Source: Lonicera japonica (lineage: Eukaryota > Streptophyta > Magnoliopsida > Dipsacales > Caprifoliaceae). From it: a stretch of DNA of 64,000 nucleotides. The stretch's first letter is position 1; each line of letters opens with the position of its first letter. The position numbers and the translations under genes are program-made. The stretch covers positions 35,060,833 to 35,124,832 of the forward strand of contig CM038466.1 of assembly GCA_021464415.1 (NCBI GenBank). The letters run 5' to 3'. Below, in pieces: positions 2,601 through 49,989 of this stretch. Under the pieces are notes generated by a model. That model was not told the origin of the DNA and did no database searches. It saw nothing but the letters and a program-made list of their open reading frames with translations.

Positions 2601-3925
2601 AAAAAAACAAAGAGAAAATAGCATAACATCATTTTACTCATTTTTCAACTCGTATAAAATGGAGCGTTAATGTCACGTTCAAATATATCATGGTTACAAT
2701 GTTAAAATTATCATAAAAGTTAAAATAATAAAAACACTTTTGAATATCAATTCAGCATTAAAATCAATTATCGAAAAAAAAATAAAAGACATGGTCACAT
2801 GGAAAATCATGGAGAAAGAAGTTAATAAGATAGTAAGGGATTCTAAATTTAATAAGCATATTATTACTCTCAGCACATGCACATAAAGAACAAGTAATAC
2901 ATATTATAAAGTATCTGGGAATAAACAAAAAATTTCTTTTTCTTTGTTGTTATTTTTTACTCTTTAGAATTGAAAAATGTATCTTGCTCTCTACGTTTAG
3001 GAAAAAAAAAGTCTAACTTTGACTTTTACATGGGAGCGAAATTGGGATTTTTATATTGGGTTGGTTGGATTGTGACCAAAATTTAAACTAAGTAATACTA
3101 AATTTATTCTCTTTTTGTAAAACATTATAGTATAGTTTTCATACTAAAATAAACAAAATTAGAATTATAGGAGGTAAAAATTATGTATGGGCTTTTGACT
3201 AGGCCCACATTGAAAAATCTGTATTATGTTTGGCTCATAATCCAAGGTCCTTAGGCCCATCTCCATTACAGATAAGAAATTGTTTGGCCGAATAAGATTT
3301 TTTTGTATAATAGCCGACTACTATCTGGCTACCATAGCCAACTGATCAACATGTGTGAACTCAATAACAATTGACCAATATTGGTCTGCCAATAAGTAAG
3401 GGATAATTGAGCTAGAGAATAAATGATAGAAAATAACTATTTACGAGTGTGAATAGGGTTAATGACAACTGTTATCTTAAAGTAGCGTATAACTTTACCC
3501 TTTATAGTAATTTTCATATCCGACTAACTCTAATGTAGCAATATCATATACATATAAATAGGAAGGAAAACCAACACCTAGAGACAATTAATCTCCACCT
3601 CGTGTGCCCCCTTGTTGCTTTCTAGGTTAATAGGGTAATGGGCCATGGGGCGTTACTTCACTCCCGCTAGGATCGTGCTCCGCTACAGTCTTTCATTCTC
3701 ATTTTTCTATTATTGGTCTCAATTTTGGAACTTTGTTTTAATTTTGGGTTAGTTATGAAAAATGAGTAAGAAATCTATAATTTTTTAGTTAAACTAGATC
3801 TCTAAATGTGTAAATTTGATTTTGCGAAAACCTAGTTTTTTTTTGCCATAGTTTTCCGGCCAAACCGAATGGACTGACTGAGATCGACCCGATCCATACA
3901 TCTGGTCCAGTCCGGTCTTCAATAG
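2601..3925. other. Intergenic; start of a repeat later split by the 20-kb element
   Basis: Bases 2,601-2,850 match the end of the window (63,790-64,000). A TATAAATA-like string near 3,556 sits in AT-rich DNA without an open frame beside it. Bases 3,845-3,925 (CCGGCCAAACCGAATGG, CCAGTCCGGTC) are the left half of a CCGGT-rich repeat whose right half follows the element at 24,323. No gene seen. Confidence 0.45.
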
Positions 3926-4046
3926 TGTAGACACCCCGATCCGTGACCCCCGCAAGAACCCTAACGACCTACGAGAACTACTATTTTTGGGCCCGAAACT
4001 ACCCCGAAAGGTTTTGTTGGCCAACAAACCTATTTTTAAGAGAGAT

Positions 4047-4233
4047 TGTCGCACGACATACCACATTGTTGCGCGACAATCCTCCTTATGTCGCTCGACA
4101 ATCCCTCCTGACACCAGACCATCCACTCTCTGACACTTCAGTCTGTTAGAAACATCACTTCAGCCGTTTGTCGCGCGACATAAGACACATTGCCGCGCGA
4201 CATATGCCCCTTTTGGGGAAGTTTCGCGCGACA
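4047..4233 (+). promoter_or_regulatory. Array of six TGTCGCGCGACA-type palindromes in U3
   Basis: Copies start at 4,047, 4,067, 4,089, 4,169, 4,191 and 4,222. The perfect palindrome TGTCGCGCGACA is at 4,169; the others differ by one or two bases (TGTCGCACGACA, TGTTGCGCGACA, TGTCGCTCGACA, TGCCGCGCGACA, TTTCGCGCGACA). Spacings of 20, 22, 22 and 31 bp are close to whole helical turns. The 3' LTR holds six copies at 22,938, 22,958, 22,980, 23,060, 23,082 and 23,113. The binding factor is unknown; a CGCG core is also the core of the host CAMTA-type site, but that link is inference. Confidence 0.7.
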
Positions 4234-4248
4234 TACTCTTCCGAGCAG

Positions 4249-4256
4249 TATAAATA
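4249..4256 (+). promoter_or_regulatory. LTR TATA box
   Basis: TATAAATA followed by GG, 16 bp after the last palindrome of the array. The same box lies at 23,140-23,147 in the 3' LTR. It is the most likely start point for the genomic sense transcript. Confidence 0.75.
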
Positions 4257-5424
4257 GGCCAACACCCCCAAGGGTTTAAGGACAACACTTGGGATTGAGG
4301 AATTATAAGCTTTAATCTAATTTTCTAGTCTTTTATCAAGCATTCTCTATTATCGTCTTATTTCTGAGGAATTATCGAATCTATTCTCGACACTCGACCG
4401 TCTCTGGAATCGAATTCTCGAGAATATCAGAAGAAGGAAAAGATTATTATCGCCGGAGATCTCTCTGCCGCATTATATTTTCTTTCTTATTATTATTCTC
4501 GTCGGGAAGGTAAAGAAAGTCCATTCTAGTATTTAAATTAGATATATGTGTACTTGTTTTACTTCTGTTGTTCTGTCCACGTTTTAGTTGAATAAACTTA
4601 TTGCCAAGTTACAAATAGTCTACCGTTTTCAAAACAAAAGACCCTAATAAAACTATTTGCAAAACCAGAAGAGTAAGTATATTACCATCCGGATAAAACC
4701 CTGTTTTCAAAACCCGGACCGGTAAAACTTACTTAAGGAATTAAAACCCGGTGTATCTTATTTGTTTCATAGATTGTGATATGTCCGGTTGAACTCCCCT
4801 CAAAAGTTCTAATTCCATATTGAATTAGTTCCAGTAAAGATCCGAACTTTTACAAAAGTAATCACTGCACGAGAAAATCGTCATTATCTGAGAAATAATA
4901 CGGGACACTCTTTCAAAAACAAAAGGGATTTGCCATTCGTACTTACATCTTTTAATAAAGAACATCGGATCTTGGAATACAAAGATTTTCACCCGTTTTC
5001 CCCAAAAATTAGGGTTTTCACTTAGAAAGTAGTAGACTGTCAGTAAAAGCATCCAAGTTTTTCAACATAGAATAAACATATAAAAAGACCACTAGAGACC
5101 GAAAGGGTGGAATGGGTGCTTAACACCTTCCCAAACCGTAATATAGTTTTCGAACCCTATAGAATCCTGGTTTCGTAGACAAACGTGTAAAGAAAGGCTT
5201 ATCTATAGCCTTTTCTCTTACACAACTATTTTATCTGTTTTCTCGTAAAACGTACTGGCGACTCTGAAAGAACCCCTTTGCATCTAGAAATAGAACATAG
5301 GGACATGTGATATGAATCACCAAAAAATACTCCAGCAAATGGAATGACGGAGTCTGTTCCGACGTTTCAAACGCCCAACCAAACGGGGACGAGACCCGGG
5401 GGTCGCATTTACGGATTCTCATAG

Positions 5425-5442
5425 TGGCGACTCTGCTGGGGA
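5425..5442 (+). other. Primer binding site
   Basis: TGGCGACTCTGCTGGGGA begins one base after the LTR end. Its reverse complement ends in CCA as a tRNA 3' end must. I read it as complementary to a tRNA-Arg, the primer reported for Ogre-type elements, but the tRNA identity is from memory and could not be aligned here. Confidence 0.8.
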
Positions 5443-6175: not shown

Positions 6176-8329
6176 ATGGCCGATGGACGCGAGAATCAAG
6201 AGATAGATCAGAGCCTAGCCGAGGCGTCTGCAGTTCAGCCAACTTTAGCCGAAATGCACCGTCTGTTAACGACCGTCAGCATGAACCTAGCAAGCCTCGC
6301 AAACGAGCAACAAAATACCCGAGTCAGAGTAGAGGAGTTATCAGCCGTACGGACCGCACCACCGGGGTTTGAACGACTACCACCAAATCGAGATCCGAAC
6401 CAAGGACAATCTTCACAAGTGCTTCCCCTGATCCAAGGAACCAACCCACCACCAACGGGTCCCATCATAGCCGGTCCCGTTCAAACTGACCCCAACAATC
6501 AGAACCAATGGGCCCCAGATTCAGGCCCTACTTATCAGCAACCAGAACCATCCATAGTTTGGCCACAACCTCAAGTACAACCCGGATTTGACCCCCAATA
6601 CCAACCATGGCCACAAATTCCCGCAAGACCTATTCCACCACCGGCCCCAGTAGGCCCTCCTAATGAATACCCAGACATCAATCGACTACGGGCAGTATAT
6701 GCAAAATGGTTTTAGCTCGGGAATAGCCCGACGAGGTGTCAAGAGAGAGCGAAGAAATGAAGAAACTGAAAGAGCAGATGAAGGTTCTGCAAAGAGGGAT
6801 TTCTCTGATAAAAGGGGTAGACGAGATTACAGATATGAATGCTTTCTCCCTCTACCCAGAAGCAAGACTGTCTCAGGGATTCAAGCTCCCTTCCATCACC
6901 AAATTCACAGGGACCACACCCCCCAAAACCCATCTTCAAACCTACATTAGATCCCATGTAAGTATCAGGCTGTGAGGAGCCGGAGTTGGCTCAAGCCTTT
7001 CACATGACTCTCACGGGGGCCGCCCTGAGATGGTTTTTTGATCTGGAGAGACACTAAACGAAAACTTGGGGGGATATCGTGAAGGAGTTCATGACCAAAT
7101 ATGGGTCCAACGAGGATTTGGAAATTACCCGTAAACACCTAGAAATGGCCAAGCAAGGCGAGAAAGAAAGCTTCAGCGATTTCGTCACGCGCTGGAGAGA
7201 GATGGCCTCCCAAATGTCCAAACGGCCTGATGAAGAAGAACAGTTGGAGATCATACAGAAGAACTTCACTCCAGCCGTACTGAGTTGCATGGGAAAGCAT
7301 GTATTCCCACACTTCAGAGCCCTATTGAGTATGGGATCGCAAATGGAGGAAGAATTGGCTAAGAAAGTTGAAACCGACACTAAGAAAGCCTCATACACCG
7401 GGATAAAGACAGCCACTCCAGCCGTGAATCAACTAAGCTCATACCCCTACCAATAAAACCCATTCCAACAATCACAACAAGCCCCTCCGATGAGTTGGCC
7501 TGCACAAGGAGACTCTTCAAGCACCGAGGCTAAGAGAAGGAGAAACTTCTGCACCCTCCCCACTACCCTGGTCAAAAGCCTTGAACTACTCCGAAAGGCC
7601 GGACTGATCACTCCACTCAACCCGCGCCCCCCACCAAACCCTATTCCCAGCACCTGGAGAATGAATAAGAACTGTGCATACCATCAAGCAGCAGGCCACG
7701 ACATGGAACACTGCTTAGCTCTTCGCCATCGTATCCAATACCTCATTGAAGCCATAACCATCCCCGCACCCGGCGAGCCCAATGTTACCAACAACCCCCT
7801 TCCCAACCATGCTCCACCTGCGAGAATTAACGCCTTGACCACTGATGAAGAAGGCTTTGACCCCGTAGGACTCATCCGGGATGACCCAGCCTATAAGGCG
7901 CCCGTTATGCTACCAGCAAAGGCTCAAGTTACCCCAGGCATCAATCCGATAATCGACCAATGGATGGCTAAGATGAACTTCCTACTTGGGCAGGGTTTAG
8001 GAAAGGCAAATCAAGGGATCTTACGGCTACTTACAATCAAAACTAATCCCGAAAAATCTGGAATAGGATGGACTCAGGAGAAGAAGAAACAGCCATGGAA
8101 ACTCCGAGGCCCCCCTAAGGAGACAATCTGCATGACAGAAATCTCCCCCGGAACTTTTAGTTGGTCGGCAGAGCCAGAATCATCAGAAATCCCGGAAGGA
8201 TCAGACCCAGCATCCCTTTGGATACAACAAATCACCCGTTTAGGAAGGGTATACCAGCCACCACCGATGGATGCCGAGAAATCACCACCCCCTAAGGAAA
8301 TAGGAGAAGATCGAGTACTGAGCAGTTGA
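6176..8329 (+). pseudogene. gag: gag pseudogene (Tat/Ogre-like)
   Basis: Capsid-type structural protein that would package the element RNA in the cytoplasm. It starts at ATG 6,176 (MADGRENQEI) with a proline/glutamine-rich N-terminal part, then a short coiled coil (6,736-6,800, SEEMKKLKEQMKVLQ), a motif FKLPSITKFTG (6,886-6,918) typical of plant gypsy gag, and the retrotransposon gag core (about 6,985-7,400, including ALRWFFDL and FSDFVTRWREMA). A CxxH...H...C knuckle begins at 7,673 (CAYHQAAGHDMEHC) and a glycine-patch-like stretch is near 7,980-8,020. Broken by a TAG at 6,713, frame changes near 6,720 and 6,970, TAA at 7,054 and 7,454, and another frame change near 8,320. No functional product is expected from this copy. 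Confidence 0.85.
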
Positions 8330-10016: not shown

Positions 10017-11862
10017 TCCTTAAAAGTGAAAGAAGAGGTGATGAAGCAACTGAGTGTGGGGTTCTTGCGGGTAATTGAGTACCCTTCATGGTTAGCTAAC
10101 ATTGTACCCGTTCCAAAGGCAAATAGAAAGGTCCGCATGTGTGTGGATTACCGAGATCTTAACAAAGCTTGCCCAAAAAATGATTTCCCATTACCCAACA
10201 TCGATTTAATAGTGGATAATACTGCCAACCATACCCTGAAATCATTTGTGGATGGTTTCACCGGATATAACCATATCAAGATACACCCAGATCACTAGGA
10301 GAAAACAGCATTCATCACACCGTGGGGGACATATTGCTACACCGTTATGCCATTCGGGCTGAAGAACGATGGGGCAACATATCAGAGGGCAGCAACAGTT
10401 ATCTTCCATGACATGATTCATAAAGAAGTAGAGGTGTATGTGGACGACATGATAATCAAGTAGAAAGAGAGGGAAGGCCATGTACCAGCCTTGCGAGCCT
10501 TCTTTTACCGGCTCCGCCAGTATTAGATGAGGCTCAATCCGCAGAAATGTGTGTTCGGGGTAACCAAAGGGAAACTCCTGGGCTATGTCGTCAGTGAAAA
10601 GGGAATCGAGGTAGACCCTGCCAAAGTCCGGGCTATCCGAGACATGCCCGAACCTCGTACTGAGAAAGAAGTCCGACGGTTTTTAGGTAATCTGCAGTAC
10701 ATCAGCAGGTTCATCTCTCAGCTTACTCAAACTTGCAAACCCATCTTCAAACTCCTGAGGAAATCTTCACCAGGAGAATGGGACGATCAGTGCCAGGAAG
10801 CTTTTGATAAGATAAAGGACTACCTCTCCAGCCCCCCAGTATTAGCCTCACCACAAACTGGACTACCACTAATTCTATACCTAACCGTCACTGATTCAGC
10901 TGCAGGAGCCATGCTAGCCCAACACCTGACCGATACCCGGAAAGAGCATGCCATCTATTACATCAGCAAGAAGCTGTCCCCGTTTGAGATAAACTACACA
11001 CCATTGGAGAAATCATGCACCGCTCTCGTCTGGGTAACACAGAAACTACGGCACTACATGCTGGTTTTTCCAGTCATCCTGGCATCACGAATTAATCCGT
11101 TGAAATACCTCTTCGAGAAACCAGCTCTCTCGAACCGAATGGCAAAATGGTTATTTCTACTCTCCGAATTCGACATCACCTACATGACCCAGAAGGTAGT
11201 CAAAGGCAAGATCATAGCTGATTACCTGGCCCACAATCCGATATTGGGAGACATGTTAGAAGAAGTCGAGTTCCCGGATGAAACCATCATGAATGTCAAG
11301 ATCGATGAGGACTGGAAATTGTACTTCGACGGGGCCGCCAACCGGAATGAAAATAGGATAGGCATCCTGTTAGTCTCTCCAGACCAAACTCACTCACCGG
11401 TATCATATCGTCTGAATTTCTTCTGCACCAACAACATGGCCGAATATGAAGCTTGCATACTCGGGTTAGAGATCGCGCTCCAAAGGGGTATAAAGAGAAT
11501 ACAGGTATACGGAGATTCAGTACTAGTGGTCCACCAAGTTCTGAAGGAATGGAAAATCAGAGATGAGAAATTAGTCCCTTACCTCGCCCGACTAGAGGAT
11601 GTCGCGGGAAAATTCAAGCATGCGGAGTTTTACTATGTCCCCAGGTCACAGAACAGTTTTGCTAACGCACTGGCAACCCTGGCATCTATGATCGATATCT
11701 CGGAAGGGATGGAAGAAATAACTCTTACAGTACAAAAGAAGTCAGGACCAGCACACTGCATGGCCTTGGAAGTAGAGAATGAAGAGGAAGGGGACTCGAC
11801 CACTTGGTTTTACGATATCTGGAACCTGTTAAAAAATCACAGTATCCCGAGCAAACAGATAA
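10017..11862 (+). pseudogene. Reverse transcriptase plus RNase H domains (pseudogene)
   Basis: Would copy element RNA into DNA inside virus-like particles. RT motifs include VRMCVDYRDLNKACPKNDFP (10,131-10,190) and the catalytic YVDD at 10,437-10,448. Then the gypsy RNase H (LILYLTVTDSAAGAMLAQ from 10,869; YYISKKLSPFE near 10,957) and a second RNase H-like domain (LYFDGAANR at about 11,319, NNMAEYEACILGLE near 11,430, NALATLAS near 11,664), the extra RNase H characteristic of Tat elements. TAG stops at 10,014, 10,296, 10,461 and 10,524 break the RT. The frame changes at an A7 run (about 11,861) just before integrase. Confidence 0.92.
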
Positions 11863-13054
11863 AAAAACACGGGTCACACTCGGGAGATTGGCATCAGGGT
11901 TCATACTTTGTGCCGGCAGGCTATATATGAGGAACTATGACGGGACCCATCTCCAATGTCTCGCGGAAGAAGAGTCCGTCAAAGTAATGGATCAGATACA
12001 TGGGGGCGATTGTGGACCTCACATGAGCGGACATACACTTTCCCGTAAGATCGTCAGACAAGGCTATTACTGGTCTACCCTGCAGAACGACTGCGTTAAC
12101 CACGTACGCCATTGCCACAAATGCCAAATCTATGCTAAATCTCAGAAACTTCCACCAAAAGAGCTGTACAACATGACTACTCCCTGGCCTTTCGCGACTT
12201 GGGGAATTGACATCATCGGAAAGATTTCACCCAAAGCCAACAACGGCCATGAATTCATACTAGTGGCCATTGACTACTTCACCAAATGGGTGGAAGCTGA
12301 GTCATTCCAGACCATTGATGCCAGAAAAGTTGCCCGATTCATCCGACGGAACATCATCTGCCGGTATGGGGTCCCACATGAGATCGTCTCGGATAATGGC
12401 ACTCACTTCGAAGGAGAGGCCAATACAGTTATGGAAGAATACGGTATCACCCGACACAAATCTTCGCCATATAGACCACAAACCAATGGGGCAGTTGAAG
12501 CTGCCAACAAGAATCTGAAGAATATCTGAAGCAAGATGACCGACACCTGCTGGGACTGGCCAGAGAAATTACCATACGCATTGTGGGGATACCGCACCAC
12601 CGAGAGGGTCTCCACCAGGGCAACCCCGCTTTCTCTTACATACGGGATGGAAGCAGTCCTCCCTATTGAGTTAGATGTCCCCTCTCTCAGAGTAATGCTA
12701 GAGAATCAAGTCAATGAACTGGAGTGGGTCCAGGCACGTTATAACGAGCTAGCCCTACTGGATGAGAAAAGATTAAAAGCCGCGTACCACCACCAAGGGT
12801 ATCAGAAGAGAATCGCTCGGGCGTTTAACCAGAAAGTGAAGACTCGGGATATCAATGAGAACGACATCATATTGAAAGAAATTCGAGAACCAGCCAGGGA
12901 CCCAAGGGAAAAGTTTGGACAAAAGTGGACAGGGCCGTACATCGTCAAAGAAATCAATACGGGGGGTGCCGCTATACTCGCTGATTTAAACGGATAGTTA
13001 CTGTACTCACCAGTCAACATGGATCGACTGAAAAAGTATTACCAATATATGTAA
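11863..13054 (+). pseudogene. Integrase pseudogene
   Basis: Would insert the cDNA into host chromatin. The HHCC zinc finger is visible (His 11,999; Cys 12,113 and 12,122). The catalytic triad is Asp 12,209 (GIDIIG), Asp 12,392 (SDNGTHF) and Glu 12,497 (NGAVEAANK), with the second Asp and the Glu 35 codons apart. A GPY/F-type C-terminal motif is present (WTGPYIVKEI near 12,931). No chromodomain follows, which fits Tat rather than chromovirus lineages. TGA at 12,527 and TAG at 12,995 interrupt it; the frame ends TAA at 13,052. Confidence 0.92.
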
Positions 13055-13286: not shown

Positions 13287-14543
13287 CTAATCTCTAGGGG
13301 TTGGCCACACTGGGTCCTCAGTAGCCAAATCGATCTGAGCCTCGTCCAAAATCTGATACACAAAAGCAATGTTATCATTAGTGGCCTCAGTACCCATGAA
13401 TCGAAACCACTCCATTTGGAGATGGTCGTCAATCAGTTCTCCTTTCAGAGATTGCCAGCAAGAGCAGATAATGTCAGCCCGTAAGGGCCGGGTAATACTG
13501 AAACGGGCATAGTTGAACTGACGAGTCAGTCGAGCACGCCACATCCTCTCTACCGATAAAGAAACATGCGGGGTCACAAATTTAGACTCAGAGGATAAGT
13601 TGTTCAGACCAAGGGGAACCTCCTGAGGAACGTTAAACTGCCGAAGAAGACGTCCTTGGAGATAAAAGGAGGTAAACCAAAGTCCGCGAAGTCGAACATA
13701 GTTCTGACCCCCTTTACTAAGCACCATCTCCCTCAGCTTCCACCAAGGAATGTTCCACCGGATAGCCCGAAAGTTCTCCGAAAACCACACCGTCCAATTA
13801 GAGGAAGACATGGTCAAAGATCCAAAGAAGGGACGACGGAAGAAATGCGTCAGATTATCGAGCCGAACCCCGTTGAAACCCATCGATCGGAAGCGCTCTA
13901 GCAGCCACATGTATAGTAAACACGAACTCCCCCTGAGGAAGGGTGAGGATCCCCTTTGAAGATCATCTAGACCATTCAGGGTCTCTGCAAGAACAATGGG
14001 CACTATGGACTCTCCATTCCTACCGCGGTAGATCAAACTCAGAATAGTCGGATCAACACGAGAGGAACCCGTCACCAGCAATATATCAGAAACAAGGCAA
14101 ATCAGGGCCGCCGCAGTACGCCCCACGCCGTAAGAGGCTCTATCTTCATAACGATGAAAGAACCTCACCATTTTATGAAGGTTAAGAAGTCCGTCAGTAA
14201 TAAAACCATCACAGGCCGCTTGGGGAATGGCTAACAGAGCAATCAGCATATCCCGAGGACCGATTTCTTCTATAGGAACTGCCATTGGGAGATGAACGTC
14301 AAAACACAACAACCAAGAGAACTCCTCATAAGTCGGACAGAGCTCATCTAGTCCAAAGCGGAAAAGATGGTCCGCAGGACTCCAGAAATACAAAGTACCT
14401 AAGAGAAAGAAAAAATCAACGGGACGATGACACCAGCCCGCTTAAGGACTAAAAACACCGAAGTTCAAACCATTTTCAGAAGATATCAAAGCATCTCGAG
14501 CATTGACGTAAGAAAAATCAGATTTTGTGCGATAAGAGGACAT
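13287..14543 (-). CDS. Antisense DUF7745-like protein, two exons, open reading frame
   Basis: Reverse-strand gene inside the retroelement. I place the start at ATG 14,543 (MSSYRTKSDF). Exon 1 is 14,543-14,471, the intron 14,470-14,399 (72 bp, GTTTGA...CTTAG, with an in-frame stop), and exon 2 14,398-13,287; joined length 1,185 nt gives 394 residues with no stop. The N-terminal motif HLFRFGLDELCPTYEEFSWL is the W/F...PT.EE entry of DUF7745/plant-mobile-like proteins, and VLAETLNGLDDLQRG... LLYMWLLERF matches the later conserved core. Function is unknown; relatives occur in plant genomes and in Tat-type elements. It is complete while all neighbours are broken. Homology was judged by eye. Confidence 0.8.
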
Positions 14544-14582
14544 TTTTTGGAAGGTGTGGGGATGAAAGAAGGAAGATGGGTG

Positions 14583-14660
14583 TATTTATAGCAAAAAAGA
14601 GGGTCCTGTGCCTGTTTGTCGCGCGACAAACCCATGTCCAGGAGGGATTGTCGCTCGACA
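14583..14660 (-). promoter_or_regulatory. Promoter of the DUF7745-like gene
   Basis: On the reverse strand a TATAAATA box (14,590-14,583) lies 40 bp before the ATG at 14,543. Upstream of it are TGTCGCGCGACA (14,617-14,628) and TGTCGAGCGACA (14,649-14,660), 32 bp apart. The text next to the second copy (CGACAATCCCTCCTG) is shared with the LTR at 4,095-4,109, so the promoter looks copied from U3. The 5' untranslated region would be very short. Confidence 0.65.
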
Positions 14661-14983
14661 AACCCATTTAGAGTCACCCTATTTTTGCTGTCCTTACACA
14701 TAACAATCATTCTTGCCAAAAGAATCGCTTATGGGTGCATTCTTGTTCTCACTTTGTTCTTTTGCAGGGACCCTAAGTACTACCGCATTACAAGTTATGG
14801 CTCCTAAATTACTAAAATCCATTATCACAGATAAGGAATACATGTATAAACATCGGAAACGAATAAAGACTTTCATAAATTAATAAAAGAACAATTTCCA
14901 AAAAACTAAATCTCTGTCTACAAGTCTATAAAAATAAGAAATACATCTCTGTTCCAAACTAACAAAAATGCATAAAGGAAAAA
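14661..14983. other. Spacer between the two antisense genes
   Basis: Non-coding AT-rich DNA. It would hold the 3' untranslated end of the PMD gene and the upstream edge of the DUF7745-like promoter. CTTTGTTCTTTTGCAGGG near 14,754 resembles a stretch after the PMD promoter (ATCTCTTGCAGGG near 21,231). No separate gene seen. Confidence 0.4.
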
Positions 14984-15351
14984 CTAATCTACTCGAGCGC
15001 GTTTTGACACACTCCCACTATCACCCGAGCCCTCCTTGGGAGTAAGATCAACTACTGGGACGCCTGGAATAGGAGGAACTGTCGCCTGGGAAGGCCCCGT
15101 CGACTGGACAGGAGCCGTAGGACGGATCACCGACGATCGAGAACGCCTAGAAGTCCGACTACTGCTCCTCCGAGACTCCGTCCGGGCATGAGAAGAAGTC
15201 AGGGGGTCGTCCGGCCGCAAAAAACGTCGATAGCCCTCTGGTAGTCACGCATATATGCTGGAGGGTCTCGACCGACGTACTGAAGCAGGTTCTAACTATA
15301 AAGGTACTGGGCGTGCCAAGCTCGCAGGTCTGCCACCCGTACACTCACCCT
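14984..15351 (-). other. PMD gene exon 5 and C terminus
   Basis: Acceptor CTTTTACAG|AGGGTG. Reads RVSVRVADLRAWHAQYLYS then TAG (15,294-15,292), then LLQYVGRDPPAYMRDYQRAI. The frame changes at a T6 run near 15,225 into a serine/arginine-rich tail ending SKRARVD and TAG at 14,984. The basic end could act as a nuclear signal (inference). Confidence 0.65.
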
Positions 15352-15438
15352 CTGTAAAAGACACGAGATAAGAGAATCAGCACAGTCAAAATAAATAAAT
15401 ATAGATATAAAAGTATCAAGAGAAGGTGAAGAAGGTAC

Positions 15439-16545
15439 CTCATCACCAGGGCGACCACCCAAGTAGTCAAAAATATCCTCAGGAAGAGGATACTCAGGGA
15501 CAGTGTATCGACGTAAACTAGCGCCGACATAAGAGATGTCTCTGGGGAGTTGGGGTAGATCTACCCACGGAATGGAAAACCCTGCCGGAACAGCCGCAGA
15601 AGTGGACCCCCCCTCCTCGCGAATAGGGAACAAAAGAGGGCGAGAAGATGAGCCGCCGAGACCTGAAGACCGGGCTAGAGGCCCCATAGCAGTCATCGGG
15701 AGAGGAGTCAACGTGGCGTAGGTACGGACCCCTGGAGGATCCACCATAGCCGTCTCCCTCAAAGGCAGAACCCCACTAGAAAGAGTAGTCGCCGCAGCAG
15801 GAGGGGTCCGCCCGAAGTGCTCGTAATCCATCCCAAGGTCCGCAGGCTCCCAAGACCTCTCAAAAAATCCTGCTCTCCCCTCGGCAACCTCAGCAGCGGC
15901 AAAGAGGACCTCCGGAGACACAGAAGGGCCGGTAGGGAACTCAAAGCCCTCAGCACGCCGCTCCTCCACGAGTGTCGTCTGAGGTGGCTGCTCCGGAGCC
16001 GCTGTTGTATCACTGCCCTCACCCCCTGACCTGTCACCACCCTCGGCAGCAGCAGGAATGTCCCTCTCCCCCTCAGGGTCCTCATCCTCGGAATCGAAGA
16101 TGTTGTCCCTCTGGTCGGGGACAGGTGGAAGGTGACCTGGAACCGCCCTAGCTAGGTGGGTCTGTCCTCGTATGTAATGGGGATCTCCTCCCAACGCCCG
16201 ATATCTCTCATAGAAGACCCGTCCCCGAGTCCCCTCCGGCTCCCTCATCAAATAACGGGCAGCAAAAGCAACATAGTCTCCCTCCTCAGTGAATGTCTGA
16301 AAGCCAAGACCGTCCACCAAGGCCTGCACCGTCACCGGATCAATCTCGCCCGTCCGCCTCATTAGAACCGGGGGAAATAGTGGAACTCGAGGCCACTGGG
16401 CCGGTGTGTGCTGGCGAATAACTCTCTCGCCTAAGTAAAAATGAAGGTCGTACTCATCCCTAATCAGCCGCCTGGTCCTCGAGGCGGTCAGAGCACGGCC
16501 ATACCCGAAATGAAGACCTAGATCACCCCAGGGGGCCCACTCAAT
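15439..16545 (-). other. PMD gene exon 4
   Basis: 1,107 nt, 369 codons, fully open. Acceptor TTTGTAG|ATTGAG, donor GATGAG|GTACCT. Begins IEWAPWGDLGLHFGYGRAL, the end of the mobile domain, followed by a region rich in Glu, Asp, Gly, Ser and Pro (about 16,100-15,900) that looks disordered. That it stays open over 369 codons while exons 1, 2 and 5 carry stops may be chance. Confidence 0.75.
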
Positions 16546-16633
16546 CTACAAAGAGAACAAAATTTTATTTTAGTTATTTATATATTCTATTTACCATTTA
16601 TTTATTGAAAGGAAAGAGTACTAAAATATTTAC

Positions 16634-16807
16634 CTGCTCCTCCAGCAGGTCATGGACGGTAGCAGCACCGGTCTCTCGAGTCCGGTATACATAAGGAGCC
16701 CTGTAGTTCCTCAAGATGAATCGGCGAAGAAAGGGAAACTGATCCTCGTTCTCGACGAGGAGATCCACCTGGGCGCGCCCTAGACGGGTATACGCCACAA
16801 ACCAACT
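16634..16807 (-). other. PMD gene exon 3
   Basis: 174 nt, 58 codons. Acceptor CTTCTTCAG|AGT, donor GAGCAG|GTAAAT. Encodes SWFVAYTRLGRAQVDL and RNYRAPYVYRTRETG without a stop. Flanking introns of 88 bp on each side are T-rich before the acceptor, as expected in dicots. Confidence 0.75.
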
Positions 16808-16895
16808 CTGAAGAAGAAACATAAAAGATATCAGCAATAATTAACAGGTAAAAAGTAAAAAACTGGAACAAAGTTAAGGGAACAAAGGTATATAC

Positions 16896-17562
16896 CTCCT
16901 ACATCAAAGAAAAGCCCTTAAGGTTCAGGGCTAAGTGGCGAGAAACCTGGTCCATAGCGTCATAGAGGACGGCAAGAGTAAAACTGCCCCAATCGTAGTC
17001 GAACATAATGTTGAAGTCCCAAAGGTAGGGCAGCCACCAGAGATGGGCTGTGTCCCCCCCACGGGCCTCGAATAGATCGTGGAGCGTCAGTAGAAGAAGG
17101 ACGCGGGCATACTGGCGCGCCTCCTGACGGGTCATCGGCGCTCCTGAGGCAACTAATCGGGCTCTCTCCGTGGCTAGCCGAGTAACCAAGACGGCCCGAG
17201 GAATTGTATCACCAGAACTCCGCCGCTCCGAAAACCATCCTAATACACCAACGATGCCCTCTGCTGTCAGACGCAAGGGGACATCGATCTGTATAGGGAC
17301 CCCCTGAAGGAATCCCAATCAGAGCAAACAAGTTGAGGGGGGTCATCGTCATCTCCCCCTAGCTCCAGTGAAAAGTGTGAGTGGTGTCCCACAGGTGACA
17401 GGCCAGAGCTGACACCAACACAGCTGCCCTAAATACCCGCTCCGGGAGGGCATCGAAGAGAGAGCTAAAAGGAGTCGAAAGAAGTAACTCCTGGACAGGG
17501 GTCGGTGCCTGTCGCCACTCTAAAGAGATGGTGTTGGGAGAACCCCAACCACGGCCAACCCA
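16896..17562 (-). other. PMD gene exon 2, domain core
   Basis: Acceptor TCCGCAG|TGGG, donor GGAG|GTATAT. It encodes the THTFHW..GEMT entry (TAG at 17,361-17,359 sits between W-S and G-E-M), a one-base frame change near 17,305, then YARVLLLLTLHDLF and WLPYLWDFNIMFDYDWGSF. The pattern Y..LLL..LF....WLP.L.D....Y.WGS..LA.LY is the classic PMD signature. Confidence 0.8.
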
Positions 17563-17584
17563 CTGCGGACAAAAGAAACAAGTA

Positions 17585-20500
17585 CAGGAATAGGAGGGTA
17601 CTTTGGTGTAATTATGAGAGATATAGGGTGATAAGGTAAATTATGTAATTTTCCAAACCTGAGGATACTTTGGTGTAATTATAAGAGATATAGGGTTATG
17701 GGGGTAAATTATGTAATTTTCCAAACTTGAGGGTACTTTGGTGTAATTATGAGAGATATAGGGTTATGGGGGTAAATTATGTAATTTTCCAAACCTGAGG
17801 GTACTTTGGTGTAATTCTAAGAGATATAGGGTTATGGGGGTAAATTATGTAATTTTCTAAACCTGAGGGTACTTTTGTGTAATTATGAGAGATATAGGGT
17901 TATAGGGGTAAATTATGTAATTTTCCAAACCTGAGGGTACTTTGGTGTAATTATGAGAGATATAGGGTTATAGGGGTAAATTATGTAATTTTCCAAACCT
18001 GAGGGTACTTTGGTGTAATTATGAGAGTTATAGGGTGATAAGGGTAAATTATGTAATTTTCCAAACCTGAGAGTACTTTGGTGTAATTATGAGAGATACA
18101 GGGTTATATGGCAAATTATGTAATTTTCCAAACCTGAGGGTACTTTGGTCTAATTATGAGAGATATAGGGTTATGGGGGTAAATTATGTAATTTTCCAAA
18201 CCCTGAGGGTACTTTGGTATAATTATGAGAGATATAGGGTTATGAGGGTAATTATGTAATTTTTCAAACCTGAGGGTACCTTGGTGTAATTGAGAGATAT
18301 GGGGTTATAAGGGTAAATTATGTAATTTTCCAAACTTGAGGGTACTTTGGTGTTATTATGAGAGATATGGGGTTATAAGGGTAAATTATGTAATTTTTCA
18401 AACCTGAGGGTACTTTGGTGTAATTATGAGAGATATAGGGTTATAAGGGTAAATTATGTAATTCCCCAAACCTGAGGGTACTTTGGTGTAATTATGAGAG
18501 ATATAGGGTTATAAGGGTAAATTATGTAATTCTCCAAACCTGAGGGTACTTTGGTGTAACTAAGAGAGATATAGGGTTATAAGGGTAAATTATGTAATTT
18601 TCCAAACCTGAGGGTACTTTGGTGTAATTATGAGAGATATAGGGTTATGGGGGTAAATTATGTAATTTTCCAAACCTGAGGGTACTTTGGGGTAATTCTA
18701 AGAGATATAGGGTTATGGGGGTAAATTATGTAATTTTTTAAACCTGAGGGTACTTTTGTGTAATTATGAGAGATATAGGGTTATAGGGGTAAATTATGTA
18801 ATTTTCTAAACCTGAGGGTACTTTGGTGTAATTATGAGAGATATAGGGTTATAGGGGTAAATTATGTAATTTTCCAAACCTGAGGGTACTTTGGTGTAAT
18901 TATGAGAGTTATAGGGTGATAAGGGTAAATTATGTAATTTTCCAAACCTGAGAGTACTTTGGTGTAATTATGAGAGATACAGGGTTATATGGCAAATTAT
19001 GTAATTTTCCAAACCTGAGGGTACTTTGGTCTAATTATGAGAGATATAGGGTTATGGGGGTAAATTATGTAATTTTCCAAACCCTGAGGGTACTTTGGTA
19101 TAATTATGAGAGATATAGGGTTATGAGGGTAAATTATGTAATTTTTCAAACCTGAGGGTACCTTGGTGTAATTATGAGAGATATGGGGTTATAAGGGTAA
19201 ATTATGTAATTTTCCAAACTTGAGGGTACTTTGGTGTTATTATGAGAGATATGGGGTTATAAGGGTAAATTATGTAATTTTTCAAACCTGAGGGTACTTT
19301 GGTGTAATTATGAGAGATATAGGGTTATAAGGGTAAATTATGTAATTCCCCAAACCTGAGGGTACTTTGGTGTAATTATGAGAGATATAGGGTTATAAGG
19401 GTAAATTATGTAATTCTCCAAACCTGAGGGTACTTTGGTGTAACTAAGAGAGATATAGGGTTATAAGGGTAAATTATGTAATTTTCCAAACCTGAGGGTA
19501 CTTTGGTGTAATTATGAGAGATATAGGGTTATAAGGGTAAATTATGTAATTTTCCAAACCTGAGGGTACTTTGGGTAATTCTAAGAGATATAGGGTTATG
19601 GGGGTAAATTATGTAATTTTTCCAAACCTGAGGGTACTTTTGTGTAATTATGAGAGATATAGGGTTATAGGGGTAAATTATGTAATTTTCTAAACCTGAG
19701 GGTACTTTGGTGTAATTATGAGAGATATAGGGTTATAAGGGTAAAATTATGTAATTTTCCAAAGCTGAGGGTACTTTGGTGTAATTATGAGATATATAGG
19801 GTTATAAGGGTAAAATTATGTAATTTTCCAAACTTGAGGGTACTTTGGTGTAATTATGAGAGATATAGGGTTATAAGGGTATATTATGTAATTTTCCAAA
19901 CCTGAGGGTACTTTGGTGTTATTATGAAAGATATAGGGTTATATGGGTAAATTATGTAATTTTCCAAACCTGAGGGTACTTTGGTGTAATTATGAGAGAT
20001 ATAGGGTTATATGGGTAAACTTATGTAATTTTCTAAAACCTGAGGGTACTTTGGTGTAATTATGAGAGATATAGGGTTATATGGGTAAACTTATGTAATT
20101 TTCTAAAACCTGAGGGTACTTTGGTGTAATTATGAGAGATATATGGTTATAAAGGTAAAATTATGTAATTTTCAAAACCTGAGGGTACTTTGGTGTAATT
20201 ATGAGAGATATAGGGTTATATGGGTAAATTATGTAATTTTCCAAACCTGAGGGTACTTTGGTGTAATTATGTGAGATATAGGGTTATAAGGGTAAATTAT
20301 GTAATTTTCCAAACCTGAGGGTACTTTGGTGTAATTATGAGAAATATAGGGTTATAAGGGTAAATTATGTAATTTTCCAAAACCTGAGGGTATTTTGTTG
20401 TAATTATGAGAGATATAGGGTTATAAGGGTAAAATTATGTAATTTTCCAAAACCTTAGGGTACTTTGGTGTAATTATGAGAGATATAGGGTTGTAATGGT

Positions 20501-20600
20501 AAAATTATGTAATTTTCCAAACCCTGAGGGTACTTTGGTGTAATTATGAGAGTTATAAGGTCATAGGGGTAAATTATGTAATTTTTCAAACCTAAAGGGT
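17585..20600. repeat. 68-bp minisatellite, about 44 units, in PMD intron 1
   Basis: Consensus unit features in order: AATTATGAGAGATATAGGG, TTATAAGGGTAAATTATG, TAATTTTCCAAACCTGAGGG, TACTTTGGTGT. Units are 66-69 bp with scattered substitutions. Marker variants recur at a fixed distance: GATACAGGGTTATATGGC at 18,095 and 18,976, GTAACTAAGAG at 18,556 and 19,440, TACTTTTGTGT at 17,870, 18,751 and 19,635. The distances are 881 and 884 bp, about 13 units, so a higher-order repeat of roughly 2-2.3 copies exists. The later units (19,700-20,600) are less regular. No coding value. Confidence 0.95.
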
Positions 20601-20723
20601 ATCACAAGTGAAAGTATGTGTTTACTAAAATCTGATGCTATTTCTAGACGGGCATGCATATTTAACATTGATTTAAAATACAGGAAACGACAGAAATAAA
20701 CAAACGAATAAAAGAAGACATAC

Positions 20724-20969
20724 CAGAAATCGACGACGAATCTCGTGAGAAACGGGCTTCATCAAGAGCCACGGAATGTCCTAGACCGGAGCAGCCCGGG
20801 TAACGTCGCGGTAGACCACCGCCTGACCACGGTCTACCCCATCCTCACTGTACTAATCGAGGTTGGCCCAGTCATCGTGGTGAAGGCTGCAGCGAAGAAC
20901 GCCCTGAGCATTTGTAAAAGTGACCTCCTCCTGGTCACCCTCCAATCTATCAGGGTGTGCAGGGTCCAT
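20724..20969 (-). other. PMD gene exon 1
   Basis: Starts ATG at 20,969 (MDPAHPDRLEGDQEE), 246 nt or 82 codons, ending CTG|GTATGT. The start is chosen because it is the first ATG after the TATA box at 21,111 and its frame runs in phase to the donor. TAG codons at 20,855-20,853 and 20,783-20,781. It resembles the acidic leader that precedes the mobile domain in related proteins. Confidence 0.65.
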
Positions 20970-21103: not shown

Positions 21104-21187
21104 CTTATATAGTGAGGCAGTTTGTCGCGCGACAAATGGCCACATTGTTGCGCGACAAAGAGCCAGACACCGAAGTGTCGCGCGACC
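21104..21187 (-). promoter_or_regulatory. Promoter of the PMD gene
   Basis: On the reverse strand TATATAAG (21,111-21,104) is 135 bp before the ATG at 20,969. Upstream are TGTCGCGCGACA (21,123-21,134), TGTCGCGCAACA (21,146-21,157) and GGTCGCGCGACA (21,176-21,187), 23 and 30 bp apart. GTCGCGCAACAATGTGG is shared with the reverse complement of the LTR near 4,062-4,078, pointing to a U3 origin. Confidence 0.65.
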
Positions 21188-22797: not shown

Positions 22798-24322
22798 TGT
22801 AGACACCCCGATCCGTGACCCCCACAAAAACCCTAACGACCTTCGAGAACTACTATTTTTGGGCCCGGGACCCACCCGAGCACCTGAAACTACCCTGAAA
22901 GGTTTTATTGGCCAACAAACCTATTTTTAAGAGAGATTGTCGCACGACATACCACATTGTCGCTCGACAATCCTCCTTATGTCGCGCGACAATCCCTCCT
23001 GACACCAGACCATCCACTCTCTGACACATCAGTCTGTCAGAAACATCACTTCAGCCGTTTGTCACACGACATAAGACACATTGTCACGCGACACATGCCC
23101 CTTTTGGGGAAGTGTCGCTCGACATACTCTTCCGAGCAGTATAAATAGGCCAACACCCCCAAGGGTTTAAGGACATCACTTGGGATTGAGGAATTCTAAG
23201 CTTTAATCTGATTTTCTAGTCTTTTATCAAGCATTCTCTATTATCGTCTTATTTCTGAGGAATTATCGAATTTATTCTCGGCACTCGACCGTCTCTGGAA
23301 TCGAATTCTCGAGAATATCAGAAGAAGGAAAATATTATTATCGCCGGAGATCTCTCTGCCGCATTATATTTTCTTTCTTATTATTATTCTCGTCGGGAAG
23401 GTAAAGAAAGTCCCTTCTAGTATTTAAATTAGATATTTGTGTACTTGTTTTACTTCTGTTGTTCTGTCCACGTTTTAGTTGAATAAACTTATTGCCAAGT
23501 TACAAATAGTCTACCGTTTTCAAAACAAAAGACCCTGATAAAACTATTTGCAAAACCAGAAGAGTAAGTATATTACCATCCGGATAAAACCCTGTTTTCA
23601 AAACCCGGACCGGTAAAACTTACTTAAGGAATTAAAACCCGGTGTATCTTATCTGTTTCATAGATTGTGATATGTCCGGTTGAACTCTCCTCAAGAGTTC
23701 TAATTCCATATTGAATTAGTTCCAATAAAGATCCGAACTTTTACAAAAGTAATCATTGCACGAGAAAACCGTCATTATCTGAGAAATAATACGGGACACT
23801 CTTTCAAAAACAAAAGGGATTTGTCATTCGTACTTACATCTTTTAATAAAGAACATCGGATCTTGGAATACAAAGATTTTCATCCCTTTTCCCATTTTCC
23901 CCAAAAATTAGGGTTTTCACTTAGAAAGTAGTAGACTGTCAGTAAAAGCATCCAAGTTTTTCAACATAGAATAAACATATAAAAAGACCACTAGAGACCG
24001 AAAGGGCGGAATGGGTGCTTAACACCTTCCCAAACCGTAATATAGTTTTCAAACCCTATAGAATCTTGGCTTCGTAGACAAACGTGTAAAGAAAGGCTTA
24101 TCTATAGCCTTTTCTCTTACACAACTATTTTGTCCGTTTTCTCGTAAAACGTACTGGCGACTCTGAAAGAACTCCTTTGCATCTAGAAATAGAACATAGG
24201 GACATGTGATATGAATCACCAAAAAATACTCCAGCAAATGGAACGACGGAGTCCGTTCCGACGTTTCAGACGCCCAACCAAACGGGGACGAGACTCGGGG
24301 GTCGCATTTGCGGATTCTCACA
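22798..24322 (+). repeat. 3' LTR of the 20-kb gypsy element
   Basis: About 1,525 bp, TGTAGACACCCC...GGATTCTCACA, followed by AATAG. U3 holds six palindromes and TATAAATA at 23,140. Several palindromes differ from the 5' LTR by CG-to-CA or TG changes (for example TGTCACACGACA at 23,060 against TGTCGCGCGACA), as expected from loss of methylated cytosines. Confidence 0.95.
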
Positions 24323-25355
24323 AATAGTCTTTGGCCCGGTCTTGTCTCAAAATTGAATGGACCAAAATGTTAGGTCCGGTCCGGTGTATAGGTTAACAGT
24401 CCAGTTAACCAAGCCATGAACACCCCTACTTAAATAAGAAGCACCTAAGCCCACTCCAAGATAACCAAGACACTTAAAGTGAAGTTTATTAATCAAGCAA
24501 ATTTAGTCCAAGCCCATTTATGAATCCCATTAGCCAAGTCTAAGCTCAAATTTATTAAATTAATGAAAGCCCTCAAACCATCTAATAAATTTAAGAAGAG
24601 GAGCAGCCAGCCCCAAGAAAGAATTTAGCGGAGGAATTCAATAGGAGCATCTCCTCCCTTCTTATTTTCGATTTCTTTCTTTCTTTTATTTTTCTTTTTC
24701 TTTTTCTTTTTTTTTTCAACAACTTTGAAGATTTGAAGTTTGATTTTTTTAATTAAATTAATTACAAGTAAGTTTAGTTTAGCTTTATTATTTTATGTTT
24801 ATTAATTGTCTGCATGCTAAATTTACGCTAGGGTTAAGATGAGTGTATTCATGCAAAATGATTCTACCAATTTAATGCTTCAATGTTAAATACAATTATT
24901 TATATTTGATGCATATTTTAATTGATAAAAATAAAGTTGAATTCTCATTATTTTTTGTTAGGTTCACCTTATGATTTGTTAAGAACAAATATAGGATGTG
25001 TTTTAACAGATATAATGAGTGTTTTGACCTTATACATAAGCTTGGTTGTGGAAGAATTATAATTCAATTTTATAAATTAATTAAATTTGAATTGTTTTAT
25101 TTTTTGCAAATAATAGAGTCGAGGGACCAAATTATTGCAAGAGAATAGTAGAGTTTATGCGCATAAATACTTAGAAAGATTATATTAAATATAACTTAGA
25201 AACCCTAGTCAATTAATTAGTTAATTTTATTATCTTGCTTAAAGTTATTTAATTTATTTTATTACTTTGTTTTATTTAATTTTCTTTATTTTATTTGTTT
25301 GATTCTTGTCAACTTTTTTAGCTAGATTTTGAATTTTGTGAAAAATTAACAAGAT
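24323..25355. other. Intergenic; right half of the split CCGGT-rich repeat
   Basis: Bases 24,323-24,430 (TTGGCCCGGTC, GGTCCGGTCCGGTG, CATGAACACCCCTA) complete the repeat interrupted at 3,925. The rest is AT-rich with poly-T/C runs near 24,660-24,720. A GTAAGTTTAG-like string at 24,768 suggests intron text but no exon was recognised. No gene called. Confidence 0.5.
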
Positions 25356-44191: not shown

Positions 44192-46121
44192 TGATGGGGT
44201 AAAAAATAATTTTATCATTGGCCTACAAAGATAATATTCTACACTTTCTTTTAAATAAATATTTTACACATATTCTACACTTTCTTTAAATAAATATTTC
44301 TCTCCATAATATTTTACACTTTCTTTAAATAAATATTTCACTCCATAATATTCATCACTTTCCTTTAAATAAATATTTCTCTCCATAATATTCATCAATT
44401 TCTTTAAATAAATATTTCACTCCATTCTTCACTTTTCTTTAAATAAATATTCCACTCCATAATATTTTACACTTCCTTTAAATAAATATTTCTCTCCATA
44501 ATTTTCTACACTTTCTTTAAATAAATATTTCACTCCATTCCTCACTTTTCTTTAAATAAATATTCCACTCCATAATATTCATCACTTTCCTTTAAATAAA
44601 TATTTATCTCCATAATTTTCTACACTTTTTTAAATTACCTTTTTGCCCCTCATTTTTATCAAATTTAGTTTTTTGCCATTCTACATTTACCTATAAATAC
44701 CTCCCCTCATTCATTCATTCAACACATCAAAACATACATCAAAAACACACAACAAAAACACATCATCCTTCTCTTCCAAACTTCATCCATCTCATCCAAG
44801 AGATAAAAAGCCATTGGCAATATAAATACAAGCCAATTTAAGAAGAAATAGGAGGGTCTTACACTATTTCTTTTCATACCCTAAAAAAATACCAACAACC
44901 CTTATACACTCTCTCTCCTACACAGTTTATTATTTCATCTTTTTGAAATATTTGTAATCCCAACTCTATACTTATAAATAGAATTAAGGAAATTATAGAG
45001 AGAGATTGGTAATCCTAATTCTATATTTGATGGGGTTAAATACTAATTTTACCATTGGCCTACAAAGGTAATTCAACATTTTTTACCTCCGGTAAAATCC
45101 CATTTTTACCCCAGTAAAATCTCACTTTTACCTCCACTAAAATCCCACTCAACTCCACTCAAATTCCACCCATCTCCATTAACTTTCACTCAAATTCCAC
45201 TCACCTCCATTAACTTCCACTCAAATTCCACTTACATCCACTTACCTTTGTAAAATTACCTTTTTGCCCCTCATCTTCATCAAATTTACTTTTTTACCAT
45301 TCTAGATTTTACCTATAAATACCCCATTCATTCATTCATTTAAACACACCAAAAAATCATCTTTCTACAATCTACACACAACAAAAACACACAATTCTGC
45401 TCACCAAAAATATATAATTTCTCTCCTATAGATTTTGTTAAAAAATAGAAGGGTCATATACTCTCTATTTTCATACCCCAAAAAATAGAAGGGTCTTATA
45501 CTCTCTATTTTCATACTCCAAAAAATACCAAAAACCCTTATACACTCTCTCTCCTACACAATTTATTATTTATTCTGTTGAAATATTTGTAATCCTAATT
45601 CTATACTTATAAATAGAATTAAGGAAATTATAGAGAGAGAAGTTGGTAGCTTGTATTATCTTCCAAATTGATCTCCTTTGAGCTAATACAAAACAAGCAC
45701 ACACAAAAGGAGGACGTACCACTGGAATAGCATAAGCGCTACCGGGGGAACCTACCTTAAAAAAAAAAGTCATGTGTTCATCATTGCGCCGCATTTATTT
45801 TTTATTCACCGATATTCGCTTATTGATTGGTTAATTATCTATCTCTAGATTTTAACACCATCAATATTTATAAATAGAATTAAGGAAATTATAGAGAGAG
45901 ATTGGTAGCTTGTATTATCATCTAAATTGATTGCCTTTGAGCTAATACAAGCAAGCACACACGAAAGGAGGACGTACTGCTAGACTAGCATAAGCGCTAC
46001 CAGGGGAACCTACCTAAAAAAAAAATGTCATGTGTTCATCACTGCGCCGCATTTATTTTTTATTTACCAATATTCACTTATTGATTGGTTAATTATCTAT
46101 TTCTAGATTTTGACACCATCA
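44192..46121 (+). repeat. 5' LTR of the nested element (split)
   Basis: About 1,089 bp of its own sequence plus 841 bp of solo LTR and target duplication. Bases 44,240-44,625 are a tandem array of about 38-bp units built on CTTTAAATAAATATTTC and CTCCATAATATTCATCACT. A TATAAATA box lies at about 44,691. The same array and box are in the 3' LTR. Confidence 0.88.
45028..45863 (+). repeat. Solo LTR inside the 5' LTR of the nested element
   Basis: 836 bp, TGATGGGGTTAAATAC to TTTTAACACCATCA, flanked by ATATT on both sides (45,023-45,027; 45,864-45,868). It is related to but diverged from its host LTR, and has ACTCAAATTCCACTCACCTCC-type repeats at 45,150-45,240 in place of the host's AT array. Confidence 0.88.
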
Positions 46122-48860: not shown

Positions 48861-49989
48861 TGATGGGTAAAAAATAATTTTATCATTGGCCTACAAAGAT
48901 AATATTTTACACTTTTTTTTAAATAAATATTTTACTCATATTCTACACTTTCTTTAAATAAATATTTCACTCGATTCATCACTTTTCTTTAAATAAATAT
49001 TTCACTCCATAATATTCACCACTTTCCTTTAAATAAATATTTCTCTCCATAATATTCATCACTCTCTTTAAATAAATATTTCACTCCATTCCTCACTTTT
49101 CTTTAAATAAATATCCCACTCCATAATATTTTACACTTCCTTTAAATAAATATTTCTCTCCATAATTTTTTACACTTTTTTTAAATAAATATTTTACTCC
49201 ATTCCTGACTTTTCTTTAAATAAATATTCCAATCCATAATATTCATCACTTTCCTTTAAATAAATATTTCTCTCCATAATTTTCTACACTTTCTTTAAAT
49301 TACCTTTTTGCCCTTCATTTTTATCAAATTTACTTTTTTGCCATTCTACATTTACCTATAAATACCTCCCCTCATTCATTCATTCAACACACCAAAACAT
49401 ACACCAAAAACACATCATCTTTCTGTTCCAAAATCCATCCATCTCATCCAAGAGATAAAAAGCCATTGGCAATATAAATACAAGCAAATTTAAGAAGAAA
49501 TAGGAGGGTCTTATACTCTCTCTTTTCATACCCTAAAAAAATACCAACAACTCTTATACACTCTCTCTCCTACACAGTTTATTAATTCATCTTCTTGAAA
49601 TATTTGTAATCCTAATTTTATACTTATAAATAGAATTAAGGAAATTATAGAGAGAGATTTGTAATCCTAATTCTATACTTATAAATAGAATTAAGGAAAT
49701 TATAGAGAGAGAGATTGGTAATCCTAATTCTATATTTATAAATAGAATTAAGGAAATTATAAAGAGAGATTGGTAGCTTGTATTATCATCCAAATTGATT
49801 GCCTTTGAGATAATACAAGCAAGCACACACGAAAAGAGGACGTACTGCCAGACTAGCATAAGCGCTACCGGGGGAACCTACTTTAAAAAAAAATGTCATG
49901 CGTTCATCACTGCGTCGCATTTATTTTTTATTTACCGATATTCACTTATTGATTGGTTAGTTATCTATTTCTAGATTTTGACACCATCA
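48861..49989 (+). repeat. 3' LTR of the nested element
   Basis: 1,129 bp. The 38-bp AT array is at 48,905-49,290. A ~50-bp unit (TAATCCTAATTCTATA, TAAATAGAATTAAGGAAATT) is repeated about three times at 49,605-49,760, more than in the 5' LTR. Ends GACACCATCA. Confidence 0.9.

Follow-up and report, generated by a model that had tools for sequence, protein, structure and literature searches.

The window analysed here, a 64-kb stretch of Lonicera japonica contig CM038466.1, contains at positions 3926-24322 a long terminal repeat (LTR) retroelement of 20.4 kb with complete ends, of Tat type (Ogre-like), and this copy is a broken member of a Tat/Ogre-like LTR retrotransposon family that is present in high copy number. 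Between its integrase and its 3' LTR lie two reverse-strand genes, the intronless gene A and gene B, a plant mobile domain (PMD) gene with five exons, and a 12-bp palindrome, TGTCGCGCGACA, is clustered in the LTRs and before both genes. We think it probable that this family, with its antisense genes A and B, is controlled by one dimeric factor which, on the palindrome clusters, would set gag-pol, A and B together. A preliminary description of this DNA had already proposed a 20-kb Tat/Ogre-like element with two reverse-strand genes at this place; both points stand, the element being recognised by its LTR pair, target-site duplication (TSD), gag, dual RNase H and integrase. The genes and the palindrome clusters of the window are the following.

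4047 to 4233, no strand assigned: six palindromes of the 5' LTR, TGTCGCGCGACA with at most one mismatch, upstream of TATAAATA at 4249
13287 to 14543, reverse strand: gene A, intronless, PMD/DUF7745-like, with an in-frame stop at 14442-14444
14590 to 14660, reverse strand: putative gene A promoter, palindromes at 14617-14628 (exact) and 14649-14660 (one mismatch)
14984 to 15351, reverse strand: gene B exon 5, one stop and one frameshift in the window copy
15439 to 16545, reverse strand: gene B exon 4, 369 codons, open in the window copy, no Pfam domain
16634 to 16807, reverse strand: gene B exon 3, 58 codons
16896 to 17562, reverse strand: gene B exon 2, with the PMD core, two stops and one frameshift in the window copy
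17563 to 20723, reverse strand: gene B intron 1, 3161 bp, filled by a tandem array
20724 to 20969, reverse strand: gene B exon 1, two stops in the window copy
21105 to 21187, reverse strand: putative gene B promoter, palindromes at 21123, 21146 and 21176 plus TATATAA
22938 to 23124: six palindromes of the 3' LTR, with at most two mismatches, upstream of the 3' LTR's TATAAATA

Gene B runs from 20969 to 14984 on the reverse strand in five exons, its four introns being all GT-AG and in phase 0, and the G+C content of its exons is 0.56-0.585 against 0.18-0.33 in its introns. This structure, as the preliminary description had it, was confirmed in the window and by 20 other copies, which were hand-picked as 10-kb stretches, at rough steps, from 106 other gene A places in the 886-Mb, 967-contig assembly searched; the sample is confined to the nine largest contigs and, drawn by good gene A matches, favours gene A. 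Donors are GT in 80/80 cases and acceptors AG in 78/80, exon 1 measures 246 bp in all 20 copies and exon 3 174 bp in 19 of them, and introns 2-4 are 80-93 bp long; a second exon-2 match present in L022 was resolved when the exons were bounded. With five in-frame stops and two frameshifts, the window copy is unable to make the full gene B protein. Lesions were also found in exon 2 of 11/20 copies and in exon 4 of 12/20, and among 111 exon-4 places scored (of 4208 first-look candidates) many have one or more stops. The closest named relative of the gene B protein is from Lonicera macranthoides (86%), and two annotated proteins of that species, P0008 and P0011, splice at gene B's fourth junction too. 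In P0011 (LguiB_005335) the exon-4/5 sequence is joined to a Transposase_24-like piece (28.0 bits against a cut-off of 28.7), a fusion that is perhaps an annotation across a nested insertion.

Gene A is a single frame starting at 14543, open in the window copy bar the one stop at 14442-14444. The preliminary description had given it two exons (394 codons), and this model we reject, as its intron merely skips that stop. The two-exon model is an artefact, because the stop is private to the window copy among 21 copies, because P0001, the closest named relative, from Lonicera macranthoides (89% to gene A), is uninterrupted at the same position, and because 95 of the 107 places scored in the genome are free of stops across the queried 384 residues, a query that starts past the window's stop (the 107 places, the window's own included, come from 4305 first-look candidates). 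A distant relative, P0002 (42%), begins at the methionine equivalent to gene A's. In viral contigs, none of 35 pattern-matched stretches was found to encode a relative.

The pair is found at the same place in other copies of the family, a check that the preliminary description had suggested. Gene B stands beside gene A, in the same order and orientation, in all 20 copies chosen by gene A, and gene A is complete in 18 of these. As a check on this choice we picked 10 copies from 150 integrase matches, all at places other than the 107 scored for gene A and in stretches whose coverage ends short of gene B; full-length gene A with an upstream palindrome was present in 10/10.

Both genes are under purifying selection in the family, as judged from substitution patterns. 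Considering copy pairs with a synonymous distance (dS) above 0.05, the median ratio of nonsynonymous to synonymous change (dN/dS) is 0.11 for gene A and 0.08, 0.07, 0.08, 0.18 and 0.12 for gene B exons 1 to 5, and the pairs are not independent because the copies are related. These values come from 21 sequences including the window, after dropping rows that were off-length, had more than 3 stops or were out of register, which left 21 rows for gene A and 21, 11, 20, 13 and 17 for the five exons. Moreover, third codon positions hold 63-71% of the differences between subfamilies in gene A and all five exons. This constraint, the conserved order and the promoters support the proposal of the preliminary description that the tandem pair is a module, and selection maintains this module in the family.

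Each gene has its own TATA box, in agreement with the earlier proposal that each has its own promoter; that of gene A, TATAAATA, lies about 47 bp ahead of the ATG. The palindrome occurs at 18 sites of the window with at most two mismatches, against 0.27 expected: six in each LTR, two before gene A, three before gene B and a weaker one in pol at 11600, and all bar the last sit upstream of a nearby TATA box. In 20/20 copies there are 2-4 palindromes before gene A and 2-3 before gene B, and each copy has 7-10 more at a distance of 1.7-2.6 kb upstream of gene B, in the region of the mapped 3' LTR; none was found elsewhere in the 10-kb stretches. An unsupervised comparison gave the same picture, as the three promoter stretches have, in 90% or more of the 20 copies, six 10-mers in common, all of them consisting of palindrome plus flank and absent from the rest of the stretches. 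In the whole genome the exact palindrome occurs 29,561 times, against a single occurrence of its reversed control, and pairs with a 5-35-bp spacer number 13,909 against 0.

The arrangement of the sites is restricted as well. Only 50 of the 13,909 pairs have a start spacing of 24-29, and in the 20 copies neighbours at most 100 bp apart are spaced by 20-23, 30-32 or 80-81, apart from three that stand at 24, 29 and 33. Such spacing, mostly two or three helical turns, is what would be expected of proteins stacked on one helix face. Palindrome clusters are also kept in the LTRs of two related families (L032 and L033), which are 69-84% identical over longer pieces. Column conservation at the gene B sites is 0.960 against 0.833 in the flanks, with 3/261 shifts as high, and at the LTR sites 0.897 against 0.803 (4/377 shifts); for the gene A sites, with the register fixed at the site flank, it is 0.972 against 0.805 (4/68 shifts). 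Taken together, the shared clusters suggest one regulon across the LTR, A and B promoters. In one subfamily (L010, L012, L013, L019 and L023) the 3' LTR promoter is partly doubled, window positions 22957-23093 being matched twice, and these copies have nine or ten LTR palindromes, or more than most others.

The first intron of gene B is occupied in the window by an array of 44 units of 68 bp (17594-20601). In the 20 copies this intron measures 706-1836 bp with 7-24 recognisable units, begins GTATGT or GTACGT and ends AG in 19/20. Tandem arrays downstream of gag-pol are known from Ogre elements, where they can seed satellites (PMC7004042); the array described here differs in lying within an intron of an antisense gene. 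We propose that the introns of gene B would escape splicing at retrotransposition because the gene is antisense to the genomic RNA, and so would be retained during the process, and that the array has settled in the first intron of gene B, where it would do least harm.

The preliminary description had further taken the two as PMD/DUF7745-class genes in tandem. That they are separate genes and that gene B belongs to PMD is borne out, while gene A stays below both cut-offs. Gene B clears the Pfam gathering cut-off of 34.9 for PMD (PF10536) with exon 2 of L014 (64.3 bits) and L016 (63.7 bits); window exons 1-3, with X at the breaks, reach 51.1 bits, and the unjoined window piece alone 20.3, under the cut-off. 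The PMD match of the second exon reaches profile position 175 at residue 218/223, which puts the exon's end close to position 180, and many other PMD matches in the genome stop at positions 181-184. Gene A reaches 22.6 (window), 24.7 (P0001) and 18.2 bits (L014) against PMD, and against DUF7745 (PF24924, cut-off 26) 12.3 (P0001) and 14.1 bits (L014), the window piece having no match to this profile; its distant relative P0002 clears the DUF7745 cut-off with 27.8 bits. Comparison by sequence gave no solved relative at E up to 1. Comparison of shallow profiles of the A and B proteins gave no significant similarity (29 columns, probability 0.1), and we rejected a recent tandem duplication as the origin of the pair, distant kinship being left possible by such shallow alignments. 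The genes may correspond to the PMD-A1 and PMD-A2 clades, which were reported from Gypsy elements only (Ikeda et al. 2017, PMC5418596); two PMD types would then occur in one element here, a co-occurrence that the passages of PMC5418596 considered do not state. Three further PMD genes taken for comparison (L029, L030 and L031) were set aside as not of this element type: they are another PMD gene type, whose profile is matched in two pieces, 1-181 and about 236-347. The one at L030 adjoins an open reading frame (ORF) whose product, judged by eye, looks like a SWIM-type zinc finger, and is possibly captured by a Mutator-like element (MULE).

The mechanism that we favour has genes A and B, each behind its own TATA box, reading against gag-pol, and one dimeric DNA-binding factor, host- or element-encoded, which would occupy the clusters of the LTR, A and B and set gag-pol, A and B jointly; were the factor encoded by the element, the module would regulate itself, as VANDAL transposons do through VANC. 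Several observations weigh against this scheme. The gene A sites are no better conserved than their flanks in a MAFFT alignment (0.815 against 0.854) and in a first ungapped test (0.754 against 0.803), just 1/20 copies has a gene B that stays open until close to its normal end, and gene A is without internal stop in just 6 of the 10 integrase-chosen copies. The predicted fold of gene A is poor (mean predicted local distance difference test score, pLDDT, 47.5), at a level where DNA binding is not judgeable from structure, and spacing and copy counts are not independent, because the copies share descent, which inflates the counts. The two gene A tests without excess conservation (of three) would also suit palindromes without function, in antisense promoters once derived from the LTR and with the repeat spread by duplication and conversion, as would the short flanks common to the promoters (22 bp between LTR and gene A, 19 bp between LTR and gene B). 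We find this origin unlikely, considering that the 10-mers shared by the three stretches in 90% or more of copies all belong to the palindrome and its adjoining flank, that clusters persist in LTRs only 69-84% identical, and that spacing is restricted (50/13,909 pairs at 24-29). That the two genes were transduced from the host as fragments, or are functionless relics, is very improbable: both are broken in the window copy and gene B is rarely open, but median dN/dS of 0.07-0.18, third-position bias and conserved splice sites and promoters speak otherwise.

As to who provides the factor, LTR promoters often carry host-factor sites, and the palindrome could be a host transcription factor site exploited by the element, with A and B serving otherwise, for example in particle transport or integration. 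The TATA-proximal clusters in all three promoters suit an ordinary activator site. The genome-wide count of the exact 12-mer (29,561 against 1) argues against this origin, as does the finding that 3/3 clusters inspected in L031, L032 and L033, stretches selected neither by gene A nor by integrase, lie in LTRs related to the element's, host promoters being outside the scan. It is also possible, with somewhat less confidence, that the palindrome is bound by A, B or a complex of them, which would thereby lift silencing or activate the element, as a retrotransposon counterpart of VANC in VANDAL elements. The architecture resembles that of VANC targets, dense short noncoding motifs multiplied by tandem duplication (PMC5735166), the sites before gene A are 32 bp apart and vary from 2 to 4 by copy, and MAIN and MAIL1, which are PMD proteins, have a part in silencing (PMC5418596). 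On the other side, Pfam finds no known DNA-binding domain in A or B, PMD's own function is called undetermined (PMC5418596), and no exact cluster lies next to the other PMD genes, L029-L031. Because a recognised DNA-binding domain is lacking in both proteins, we put a host factor slightly ahead of A and B as the binder. The specific proposal that two antisense PMD-class proteins, singly or together, bind helically phased TGTCGCGCGACA clusters of the LTR and of their own promoters, coordinating or un-silencing the family in trans, is accordingly put forward as a tentative one, and a counter-silencing role is a conjecture; such a role has been suggested for MULE-captured PMDs (PMC5418596).

The remaining parts of the element are given below.

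3921-3925 and 24323-24327, both sides of the element: TSD, AATAG, 5 bp
3926 to 5423, forward strand: 5' LTR, 1498 bp, starting TG and ending TA (the 3' LTR ends CA)
5425 to 5442, forward strand: primer-binding-site-like sequence, adjoining the 5' LTR
7058 to 7456, forward strand: gag piece, Retrotrans_gag at 28.5 bits, past the cut-off of 24.1
10527 to 11930, forward strand: pol piece with RT_RNaseH and a second RNase H (RVT_3)
11783 to 12529, forward strand: integrase piece with Integrase_H2C2 and rve
22798 to 24322, forward strand: 3' LTR, 1525 bp, ending CA

A second (archaeal-type) RNase H lies between RNase H and integrase, as in the Tat lineage; RT_RNaseH and RVT_3 share one frame, and the integrase is in the overlapping next frame. 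The gag-pol frames of the window copy are split into several pieces, the reverse transcriptase is broken, and so is the gag-pro/pol junction region. The sequence adjoining the 5' LTR, TGGCGACTCTGCTGGGGA, is a putative primer-binding site; the Ogre primer is tRNA-Arg (PMC9289625). The two LTRs have 47 differences over 1498 aligned sites (K ~0.032), a divergence that dates the insertion to about one to a few million years ago at commonly used plant rates. A gag-side frame at 7457-8329 has a G-patch match of 20.7 bits, under the cut-off of 22, and a G-patch domain has been reported from some plant LTR elements (PMC9289625). Elsewhere in the window, a reverse transcriptase (RVT_1, E 1.8e-34) at 55142-57572 on the reverse strand, next to an ORF with a weak AT-hook match, is perhaps a long interspersed nuclear element, and similar tandem arrays of about 113 bp lie at 44231-44635 and 48899-49300, 4.7 kb apart.

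Several features of the element have precedents, namely a PMD in Ogre, ORFs antisense to the genome of Tat elements, separate promoters for them, and tandem arrays. The occurrence of PMD genes in plant transposable elements, on which the preliminary description relied, is an established observation; for Ogre, 57% of the elements were found to have a PMD (Neumann et al. 2019, PMC6317226). Ogre elements with a PMD ORF resemble our element in Tat lineage, second RNase H, great length, extra ORFs and tandem arrays within enlarged noncoding regions; that survey predicted ORFs of 250 codons or more, without splicing, and excluded ORFs in tandem-repeat regions, and its passages considered here contain neither two antisense genes, nor a spliced one, nor a promoter palindrome, all of which are present in our element. 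The antisense ORFs of Retand and Grande encode TRP28 or other domains (Vicient 2025, PMC11963269; Vicient and Casacuberta 2020, PMC7264820), unlike the PMD-class A and B, and a look through the Vicient 2025 text showed no use of the word "intron". The function of antisense ORFs in Tat-lineage elements is called unknown in passages of both papers (PMC7264820, PMC11963269). In the open-licence literature we found no report of an antisense PMD gene that is spliced and has a second such gene in tandem, of a shared, spaced promoter palindrome, or of Ogre retrotransposons in Lonicera. The letters of the palindrome led to a paper about chicken PRMT4, and palindromes together with antisense ORFs led to work on human elements. 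A 12-bp site common to the LTR and both antisense promoters turns the question of what antisense genes do into a binding experiment, and the case also offers a reason for a spliced gene lying antisense in a retroelement and for the position of an Ogre-type array, inside an antisense intron.

VANDAL transposons do not belong to the LTR elements, and VANC is a different protein. The likeness to the VANDAL/VANC system of Arabidopsis (PMC5735166) consists of an accessory gene together with dense short motifs in the element's own noncoding parts, and such motifs are present in 20/20 copies of our family. For VANC both binding and demethylation were shown (PMC5735166). The motifs described here differ from the VANDAL motifs in standing in three promoters, in being palindromic and in being regularly spaced. 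If the two antisense proteins do bind them, VANC would have an equivalent among retroelements, one for which a single genome offers about 29,500 exact target sites.

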